Positions 49,496-54,292 of a DNA stretch of 64,000 bases are shown here, piece after piece; position 1 is the first letter of the stretch, and each line of letters starts with the position of its first letter. The position numbers and the translations under genes are program-made. This DNA comes from Humisphaera borealis. Its GTDB lineage: Bacteria > Planctomycetota > Phycisphaerae > Tepidisphaerales > Tepidisphaeraceae. A model generated the notes under the pieces. The model searched no databases, was not told the origin of the DNA, and saw only the letters and a program-made list of their open reading frames with translations. The stretch is taken from the NCBI RefSeq assembly GCF_015169395.1, contig NZ_CP063458.1, positions 186,001-250,000 of the forward strand, read 5' to 3'.

Positions 49496-52153
<2,658 letters not shown>

Positions 52154-52255
52154 AGTTTTCGTAGGGTTGGCAGGGCGTTAAAGCGAAAGGCCGATCCTAT
52201 GCGCGGCGGGCGGGTTTACAAGAGTAACCCGGCCAACGAGATGCTCTGATCGGCT

Positions 52256-52460
52256 TTGCCGAACGAACCCAGGAACGCCAAACGAACCCAAAACGTCGAA
52301 CGAACCCGAGGCGGTTTGGTGCCCGGTGCCACGGGTCGGCCCGCAGACCCGTGCGCAAAGGGCGACCGACAGCACGGGTCTCTGGAGTACCGGGGACGCC
52401 GTGGCACCGGGACGCTCACCCGCATGCGCTCGTTTCGCCGAACGAACCCGAGAACGACTT
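52256..52460. repeat. GAACGAACCC block, copy 1
   Basis: Starts and ends with GCCGAACGAACCC and contains GGTGCCACGGGTC and, 70 bases later, GACGCCGTGGCACCG, an inverted pair. The same order of elements occurs in copy 2. Confidence 0.85.
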
Positions 52461-52784
52461 GCGAATATGCCGTAATCCATAGACCCCGACAGGGGTCAAC
52501 GACGCTTGCCACAGGTGGAGCGATGGCGGCGGAGCCGACATCGCGCAACCCGTGGATCACGGTCCCAACTAACCACCTGCCCCGGCGGGGTAGAGGAACC
52601 GTCCGTTGGCGGAAAGTCTTCGGGCGTTTGACCGCTCCTCCGCCCCTGCCGGGGCGGGGGACGGGATGTCCGTCACCACGGGTTCCGCGGCGTCGGCTTC
52701 GCCGTTGCCGCTCCACCCGAGGCTAGCGGCGTCGGCCCCGCCGGGGCCGGAGGCAAACCCGCGACTGAATGGTCATCTCGCCTC

Positions 52785-52998
52785 CGCCGAACGAACCCAA
52801 CACGGCTCCGCCGAACGAACCCGGGAACTTCCGGTGCCACGGGTCGGTGGTACACCGCAGACCGGTGCGCAAAGGGCGGCCGACGCACGGGTCTCCGGAG
52901 TACCGGCGACGCCGTGGCACCAGGTCGCTCAACCACTTGCGCTCGTTTCGCCGAACGAACCCGATAACGCCGAACGAACCCGACGCGATCCGCCGAAC
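52785..52998. repeat. GAACGAACCC block, copy 2
   Basis: Same element order as copy 1 (GCCGAACGAACCC, GGTGCCACGGGTC, GTGCGCAAAGGGCG, GACGCCGTGGCACC, GCGCTCGTTTCGCCGAACG). It has three extra GAACGAACCC words at its right end. Confidence 0.85.
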
Positions 52999-53620
52999 GA
53001 ACCCGAGAACAGCCGTCCAAACCCGGGGCGTCGCGGGAACGTAATTCCCGCGGCTCGCTTACCCATCGGCGGACCCATCAACCGCAACACCTCCGTCCTT
53101 CAATGGCGGTCGTCCAAAACCAAACCCTCGGCGCGACCGTAAGCGGTCGCCCGAGACGTCGTGCTCCGCGGAGTACACGCCGGTCCAACAGACCACACCC
53201 GTCGGGCGGCGCGCGAAGCGAGATTGCCGCCGGTCTTCAACGAAGACATCCGCAGGCGGGCAAGTCAGATTTTGTACGGTATATGTTAAGTCGCGGGCGA
53301 AAAAATGCAACCCAAAACAGCGAGAGGTTTGCCGCGCGAGCAGGGGGGTTGCATCCGCATTCCACGGGCCGACGTCGCTCTGTGCGGCTTTACCCGGCCT
53401 GATCGCTGACATGCAGGTTTCAGAGCAGCCTGCAATCTGAACCGGTAGTTGTCTGACACTGGCACGGCGACAGTTATCGGACCGGACGAGGCGGCCTTAC
53501 CGGGCGTTCACATACAGCTTAAAACCCCTCAAGCAGGGCCGAAACAAGGGCCGATGAGCCTCCTTGTCCCGGTCGCAGACTGCTGCATGTCCGGGCGAGG
53601 TCCTGAGAACGGGCGTGCCT

Positions 53621-54292
53621 ATGTCATGCTGGGTTGTACCAACGTTGGCGGCAGAGCTGTGGGGTGTGCCGCTGGAACAGGTGATGGGCGAGATCCGCGC
53701 CGGCGCGGTGGTCTCCAAGCTGGACTACGGGTTCATGCTGGTGGATGTCGCTCCCGACAGCTGCGAACTCGCGCCGCCGCCGATCCGCAAGCCGGTCCCG
53801 GCCCCGATGACCTTCGTCCCCGCCGGCGCGATCGAAGAAGCCGAGGCAGTCGCTGCGGAGCTGGTTTCTGATCTGGTCGCGGCCCCGGCCGCCGCCAGCG
53901 ACAGCGTTGACGCCGTTCCGCAATCGACGGCCGATCTCGTCGCATCAGTGGATGTCGTCCCGCCTGTTGATGTCGTCTCGCCCGTTGAGTTTGTCGCACC
54001 AGCAGAGGGTGCGGTACCAGTAGAGGGTGTCGTACCGCTCGATTACGCCGTCCCGGTCGAGTGCGTCATTCCGGTCGAACGCGTGATGGCGATGGGGTCG
54101 GCAAAGCCCAAGGGCCGAGCGCGGTTCACGCCATCGCTTCCTCCTCCGGAGTCATCGCACGCCGATGACGAATCCGAAGACGGCCCGGACCCCAATTTCG
54201 GCGAGCCCGACGACGGCAAGCCGCTCGACTGGCGCGCCGCCCGCGCCCGCGCCGCCACCCAGCGCCGTCGCCCGCCGACTCGCTTTAACTAG
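53621..54292 (+). CDS. Excisionase-like HTH protein with Val/Pro repeats
   Basis: 223 residues from the ATG at 53621; an earlier start at 53564 is possible. The first ~45 residues resemble a MerR/excisionase helix-turn-helix (VPTLAAELWGVPLEQVMGEI then RAGAVVSKLDYGFMLVDVAP). A Val/Pro/Ala/Asp-rich stretch follows, made of degenerate eight-residue units such as PVDVVSPV, PVEGVVPL, PVECVIPV. The C-terminus is acidic then basic (DWRAARARAATQRRRPPTRF). No integrase or phage gene is adjacent. Could bind DNA; not further recognised. Confidence 0.6.
   Translation: MSCWVVPTLAAELWGVPLEQVMGEIRAGAVVSKLDYGFMLVDVAPDSCELAPPPIRKPVPAPMTFVPAGAIEEAEAVAAELVSDLVAAPAAASDSVDAVPQSTADLVASVDVVPPVDVVSPVEFVAPAEGAVPVEGVVPLDYAVPVECVIPVERVMAMGSAKPKGRARFTPSLPPPESSHADDESEDGPDPNFGEPDDGKPLDWRAARARAATQRRRPPTRFN

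Follow-up and report, generated by a model that had tools for sequence, protein, structure and literature searches.

A repeat zone in Humisphaera borealis read as a miniature copy of a dispersed polar unit with a putative LexA-type promoter

Within the 64,000-nt stretch of the Humisphaera borealis genome analysed here (‘the window’; contig NZ_CP063458.1, positions 186,001 to 250,000), a zone of short repeats is one of about 65 dispersed copies of a directional unit. The best explanation of this zone, to which we attach a probability of about 0.55, is that it represents a dispersed polar unit in miniature, lacking an ORF and derived from an SOS-controlled gene of the HGL family (a name given here, after the motif of its proteins). 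Judging by the sequence comparisons described below, the ORF-less units as a class are probably miniature, once-mobile derivatives of an HGL gene, and from the same comparisons we infer unit mobility, SOS induction and binding of the repeated word.

The initial annotation had described nine near-identical words and two ordered blocks in a gene-free stretch downstream of aconitase. The words are real and all lie on the plus strand, at 52258, 52277, 52295, 52437, 52786, 52810, 52950, 52969 and 52992; eight of the nine contain the exact GAACGAACCC and the ninth reads AAACGAACCC, the consensus being GCC(G/A)AACGAACCC, with one copy that opens GTC-. The two blocks were likewise recovered (107 nt at 83% identity, 52372-52478 against 52885-52991), as were the inverted GGTGCCACGG/CCGTGGCACC pairs at 52325/52399 and 52833/52912, and a simple gene caller placed no gene between 52153 and 53644, where the next called gene begins on the plus strand. 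The position relative to aconitase has to be reversed: aconitase is encoded on the minus strand, where its ORF opens with a start codon at 52153, and the zone is therefore upstream (5′) of it. The extent given to the zone, 52256-52998, ends too early, as the unit promoter is found at 53273-53310. The unit is polar, beginning at this minus-strand promoter (53310-53273), with the words and hairpins as its far end. Its features in the window are the following:

52258..53004, plus strand: terminal array of nine 13-nt words GCC(G/A)AACGAACCC, then often (G/A)AG, in a single orientation and antisense to the predicted transcript
52323..52411, unstranded: hairpin A, copy 1, predicted at -58 kcal/mol
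52482..52748, unstranded: element B, an imperfect inverted repeat of ~266 bp, found at at least seven places in the genome including the window
52831..52923, unstranded: hairpin A, copy 2, predicted at -67 kcal/mol
53127..53222, minus strand: conserved structured leader domain, matching covariance model R1 at 85.6 bits and itself among the 16 sequences from which the model was built
53273..53291, minus strand: AT-rich 19-nt site TGTACGGTATATGTTAAGT, read on the minus strand as ACTTAACATATACCGTACA; it has the form TAAC-N7-GTAC of a putative LexA operator and overlaps the -10 box TAACAT
53305..53310, minus strand: putative -35 box TTGCAT, 16 bp from the -10 box and near the frequent end of inter-copy homology

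Some of the genomic places of element B adjoin word arrays. Successive words in the window are spaced 19, 18, 142, 349, 24, 140, 19 and 23 nt apart, and the regular spacing of a CRISPR is not found, which rules out a CRISPR-like array. Because spacings of 18, 19, 23 and 24 nt occur, no single reading frame runs across the words, and a protein-coding reading of the array is ruled out by word spacing and orientation. A gene broken by frameshifts across the zone, which would have overturned the original description, is likewise not indicated: the spacings break the frame and the covariance model places a non-coding leader at 53127-53222. A search of Rfam with window positions 52000-53800 gave no match up to E = 1. 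Two of the interpretations first offered for the zone, a composite repeat and a remnant of a larger element, fit, since the zone is one of the dispersed ORF-less copies of a polar unit that in its full form includes a gene; the third, a protein-binding array, is possible for the window words.

Across the 7.19-Mb genome, the search proposed in the initial annotation found GAACGAACCC 427 times (181 + 246 on the two strands) against 5 (2 + 3) for the word read backwards, and GCCRAACGAACCC 211 + 297 times against 0 in the reversed control; the repeat zone is far beyond chance. When up to two mismatches were allowed, exact, one-off and two-off copies of the word numbered 127, 59 and 45-46, compared with 0, 1 and 13 for the reversed word. 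The conserved stretch, as defined from 142 exact cores in 41 sources, is the 13 nt plus (G/A)A(G/C), with weakly conserved flanks, and the 13-nt word is non-palindromic. No mixing of strands within an array was seen among 31 arrays, and a replichore-oriented motif was rejected, arrays on both strands being interspersed among the places listed (first 3 Mb). Several individual arrays have features of their own. At L193 (3450-3633; genome 846949-847132), ten words follow one another with a 19-nt period and no LexA-type site was found within 700 nt. A near-identical IS-like element adjoins or lies inside the word arrays of L095, L096 and L242 (406-aa ORF, 100% between copies; L095-L242 DNA match 98.7%), and at L078 (2490-3623) two overlapping ORFs, which we take to be IS3-like, separate one word cluster from another, as though they had been inserted in an array.

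The AT-rich 19-nt site was first spotted beside arrays. A genome scan for the site alone (at most one mismatch), in which places were located without reference to the words, returned 71 places against 0 for the reversed pattern. At 65 of the 71, words of the same orientation lie within 1.5 kb on the same side, and at 0 of the 71 do same-orientation words lie on the opposite side; one remaining place has inverted words (L100) and five have no words (L080, L231, L248, L307, L308). The genes adjacent to the word-less LexA-type sites at L080 (5725), L231 (3014) and L307 (2903) might belong to an ordinary SOS regulon. For 48 arrays, the site at up to three mismatches and within 700 nt was to the right in the same orientation in 33, to the right and inverted in 4 and to the left in 0, and 11 of the 48 had no site within that distance. 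The 65 units contain 391 words, the nearest of which lies a median of 210 nt from the site (range 40-1126). Gene neighbours of the 48 arrays, read in word orientation, were ++ in 17, -+ in 15, +- in 8 and -- in 8, so that the gene past the promoter end is oriented outward from the unit in 32/48 and the other neighbour is unbiased. Hairpin A, about 90 bp in length, has 27 copies in 15 arrays, every one in word orientation, and 18 more copies were seen in fetched loci with no words within 300 nt. In pairwise comparison of units (best 60 rows), homology often starts ~26 nt outside the site, alignments that span site and leader reach only 85-90% identity, and the rows at 98-99% fall in flanking DNA past the leader.

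The 19-nt site overlaps a sigma70-like -10 box. Read toward the array, a TTG box stands 13 nt ahead of the site in 30 of 41 units with TAACAT and 12 nt ahead in 11 of 24 units with TACAAT, which in both classes gives a 16-bp spacer between TTG box and -10 box; in 9 of the 24 TACAAT-class units the TTG box is absent in range. At 13-16 nt from the site it is present in 43/65 units, against a shuffled mean of 4.5. The first half-site of the operator is TAAC (39) or GTAC (21) in 60 of the 65 units, and the second is GAAC (25), GTAC (24) or TAAC (11). A GTTC-N7-GTTC LexA box is reported for alphaproteobacteria in the available text of one study (PMC3323433), and because the unit site resembled it, the lexA gene of this genome, found via PF01726, was examined. 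Upstream of lexA lies GAACAATATCCGAAC, plus two more N7 repeats, GTTCGCCTGCCGAAC and GAACCTGTTTCGAAC. With a matrix built from the 65 unit sites, GAACAATATCCGAAC scored 16.1 bits, and 0 of 123,928 background windows reached this score (top background 8.9); the unit sites themselves average 28 bits on the same matrix. The unit promoters thus carry the operator type present at the organism's own lexA gene, and since the site in the lexA promoter outscores all background windows, the 19-nt site is read as a putative LexA (SOS) operator.

A profile search identified 11 HGL genes in this genome. Words, in antisense, are found in or after the 3′ end of 10 of the 11, and the site lies upstream of all 11, at no more than one mismatch in six and at two mismatches in five (L202, L309, L310, L311, L312). 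Ten unit copies enclose an HGL ORF with words at its 3′ end and the other copies are ORF-less. Within one homology group, six of seven units enclose an ORF read from the unit promoter; the seventh, L204, has kept the promoter and start region with no HGL ORF, as a gene-less intermediate would. The conserved features of HGL proteins include N...S.GP....GK.....NA..HG and, later, RYE. Searches of Pfam and NCBIfam gave just weak matches, far below curated cut-offs; for six HGL proteins, Pfam gave no Y1 tyrosine transposase match at E up to 1, the single protein compared with PDB sequences had no match, and five gave nothing below E 0.017 in PHROGs. Two predicted models of the domain are all-helical (pLDDT 74 and 76); neither had a Foldseek match below E 0.001, and the fold matches obtained were mid-Z helical hairpins only. 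With no near-cut-off family, no PDB match for the one protein compared and no informative fold match, no activity can be assigned to HGL.

HGL proteins are common in soil bacteria. Word pairs were found in 43 stretches of GTDB genomes (Bryobacterales, Isosphaeraceae, Phycisphaerae and others), many of them low-complexity or coding look-alikes, and those that resembled the word in context were followed. Among 244 genomes of its phylum (completeness 80 or more), this genome alone has more than one 15-mer, and 25 other genomes of its family have 0-2 words each. The 15-mer is present in 9 of 15 genomes checked, this one included, with counts, for example, of 40 in Isosphaeraceae 338R, 25 in Acidobacteriia Kiruna2, 15 in Phycisphaerae OFTM321, 14 in Bryobacterales bog_224 and 10 in Geminicoccaceae. 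HGL matches number 67 in Kiruna2, 23 in 338R, 13 in Geminicoccaceae, 7 in Solibacter, 5 in bog_224 and 5, 2, 2 and 1 in four further genomes; there are 0 in OFTM321, which has words, and in two more genomes.

In MAGs of Acidobacteriota, Isosphaeraceae and Geminicoccaceae, the word is found at the ends of HGL genes. In the Kiruna2 MAG, 11 of 17 word places directly follow the 3′ side of an HGL domain, on its own strand; the probability of this by chance is put at about 1e-20, an overstated value since some are paralogs. In the bog_224 and Solibacter MAGs, the word places listed fall elsewhere than the HGL genes, and in 338R, Geminicoccaceae and Pseudolabrys the link was checked at fetched HGL loci only. 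Translated, the word can give the peptide NEP, which occurs in 10 of 23 HGL tails from other genomes against 1.05 expected, although L160, L185 and L167 had been fetched for holding the word and the first two are among the ten positives. In the same ten ORFs, the NEP codon triplets are AACGAACCC in 22/23 cases, where codon use predicts 14% (P about 4e-18 on the assumption of independence, which paralogs violate). The reading frame of the word varies within one protein (QTNP and PNEP), and the word runs in one direction relative to the HGL gene in this genome and in the reverse direction in the other genomes; on these two grounds, the sequence comparison argues that it is the DNA word, not the peptide, that is conserved at HGL gene ends. 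The flip in orientation also argues against a role of the word as an mRNA signal. Two multi-copy arrangements were seen elsewhere: in the Bryobacteraceae MAG ACI1, a compact cassette of tandem GAACGAACCC-like words, nearly identical across its five places where shown (L115, L125, L135, L144, L145), and in an Isosphaeraceae MAG, a segment (L116, L138, L153, L155) with words in the frame that would give PNEP.

None of 24 HGL genes from other genomes showed a strict operator upstream, compared with 6/10 in the same test here; together with the near-absence of words in the 25 relatives, this suggests that the units expanded, and the SOS link arose, recently or locally. A link of the word to viruses was rejected: in viral contigs the 16-mer had 37 single matches and the paired pattern one low-complexity match, numbers close to chance by our own estimate. 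With one query each, HGL had no match in phage records and two partial matches in viral contigs; on plasmids, two queries gave three partial matches in two records.

The leaders of the 65 units fall into groups of 23, 13, 7, 3, 2 and 2, plus 15 singles. For the first group, 16 of the 23 copies were used for a structure of 36 pairs in which 97.9% of cells are paired, with 15 double-change cells against 5.2 ± 2.1 in shuffled alignments, an excess that relatedness of the copies can inflate; many of the changes are G-C to G-U, as RNA would tolerate. Run over 100 sources, the model built from the core of this group has matches at E below 0.01 in 23 units, seven of them outside the training set (L220, L247, L191, L246, L114, L223, L234). 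The second group, for which 8 of the 13 copies were used, has an unfavourable covariation term (+4.68). Among 72 loci of other genomes, the leader model gave five matches (E 0.68-0.92), read as chance.

One alternative, which we consider rather improbable, is that the ORF-less units are now host genes forming a domesticated family of SOS-inducible non-coding RNAs, whose leader and words act as RNA (for example as a protein or RNA sponge) and which have no present mobility. Such a family would agree with promoter boxes that are conserved while the spacer drifts, with the G-U-tolerant helices of the one structured leader group and with the seven matches outside the training set. It accords poorly with a model that reaches only 23 units, with the second leader group, which has no favourable covariation term, and with a word whose orientation to the HGL gene flips between genomes, which would be odd for an RNA motif.

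A less probable reading, and one that we regard as unlikely, takes the AT-rich site as a transposase-bound end of a transposable element and regards its resemblance to the lexA promoter as incidental. Some transposons have subterminal repeats. The asymmetric ends and short-site array of the units recall these, and the homology of copies that often begins ~26 nt outside the site (best 60 rows) could be taken in the same sense. However, no background window comes close to the 16.1 bits of the lexA promoter site, the spacing of the boxes is that of a sigma70 promoter, and the site is upstream of every one of the 11 HGL genes, five of them at two mismatches. Plain decay, in which repeatedly duplicated HGL genes lost their frames and left promoter and tail behind with neither transposition nor function, seems very unlikely. 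HGL genes are indeed multi-copy and variable, aligned copies differ by 10-35% (best 60 rows) and L204 resembles a gene-less intermediate, but neutral decay would not hold a 13-nt word and promoter boxes near-invariant while spacers diverge, nor would it yield groups of 23 and 13 copies whose leaders are related and which lack an HGL ORF.

The preferred reading is that of ORF-less miniatures derived from an SOS-controlled HGL gene. The full unit (10 copies) consists of a sigma70-like promoter overlapped by a LexA-type operator, followed by the HGL gene and by the 13-nt word in and after its 3′ end. Miniature copies retain the promoter and word array with a leader in place of the gene, a subset of these leaders sharing an RNA-like structured domain. 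The sequence comparisons show this architecture, the copy number, the match to the lexA promoter, the association of HGL with the word in several phyla and the conservation of the word as nucleotides. On this reading, DNA damage would relieve LexA repression and the unit would be transcribed toward the array. The word may be a double-strand recognition site at the HGL 3′ end, and the units may have spread by duplication acting in trans, possibly aided by HGL proteins; candidate routes of movement are HGL action, other transposases or recombination. Several observations count against this reading: alignments of site and leader that reach only 85-90% identity (best 60 rows), HGL proteins whose matches point to no activity, arrays with no site or an inverted one, TACAAT-class units with no TTG box in range, the strict operator seen at none of 24 foreign HGL genes and at only 6/10 here, a leader model with nothing convincing elsewhere, words and HGL genes that do not go together in bog_224, Solibacter and OFTM321, and leader covariation that is unfavourable in the second group and weakened by relatedness in the first. 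In the simplest account, ORF-less copies arose from word-tailed HGL genes, retained the promoter and array, and then multiplied.

A wider proposal, to be held only tentatively, is that HGL and the (R)AACGAACCC word represent an undescribed class of genetic system: a gene with its own 3′ recognition word, which may spread words and ORF-less units in at least three phyla and may in this species have come under SOS control, so that ~70 loci would be fired at once by DNA damage. A literature search, mostly outside subscription journals, found no description of the NALKHGL peptide or of a unit system of word, HGL and SOS promoter. HGL is a family present in several phyla which is without a Pfam or NCBIfam model and whose genes end in a conserved nucleotide word; this link offers a concrete handle on what HGL proteins bind or do. 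In one genome, many loci with SOS-type promoters appear to be its gene-less derivatives, a case of scattered non-coding units for which a single regulator may act as a common switch.

Several known systems share features with the units. MITEs are short, ORF-less, dispersed copies of a coding element, and in this they resemble the miniatures described here; of terminal inverted repeats, such as MITEs have, none was found in the window unit, the one unit considered, where no inverted pair joins both ends. Neisserial dRS3/NIME arrays are intergenic and consist of short repeated words separating diverse fillers, a likeness to the arrays described here, whereas the units here have a different word, one fixed orientation and a linked promoter and gene. 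SOS-controlled integrons and integrases, as portrayed in the available text of PMC3323433, are also array-bearing elements under LexA control; the words of the units are in contrast short and non-palindromic, and among the ORFs noticed in the units none was integrase-like. With RAYT/REPIN systems, as far as described in the available text of PMC3116915 and PMC3733652, the likeness is that of a gene family tied to a short repeat, with miniature copies across intergenic DNA. REP sequences are palindromic repeats of 20-40 bp, whereas the word is a non-palindromic 13-nt sequence, and hairpin A exceeds the length of a REP palindrome and also occurs without words. The ORF linked to the unit is without a Y1 transposase match, and the units differ further from RAYT/REPIN in having long arrays, a LexA-type promoter and a leader.
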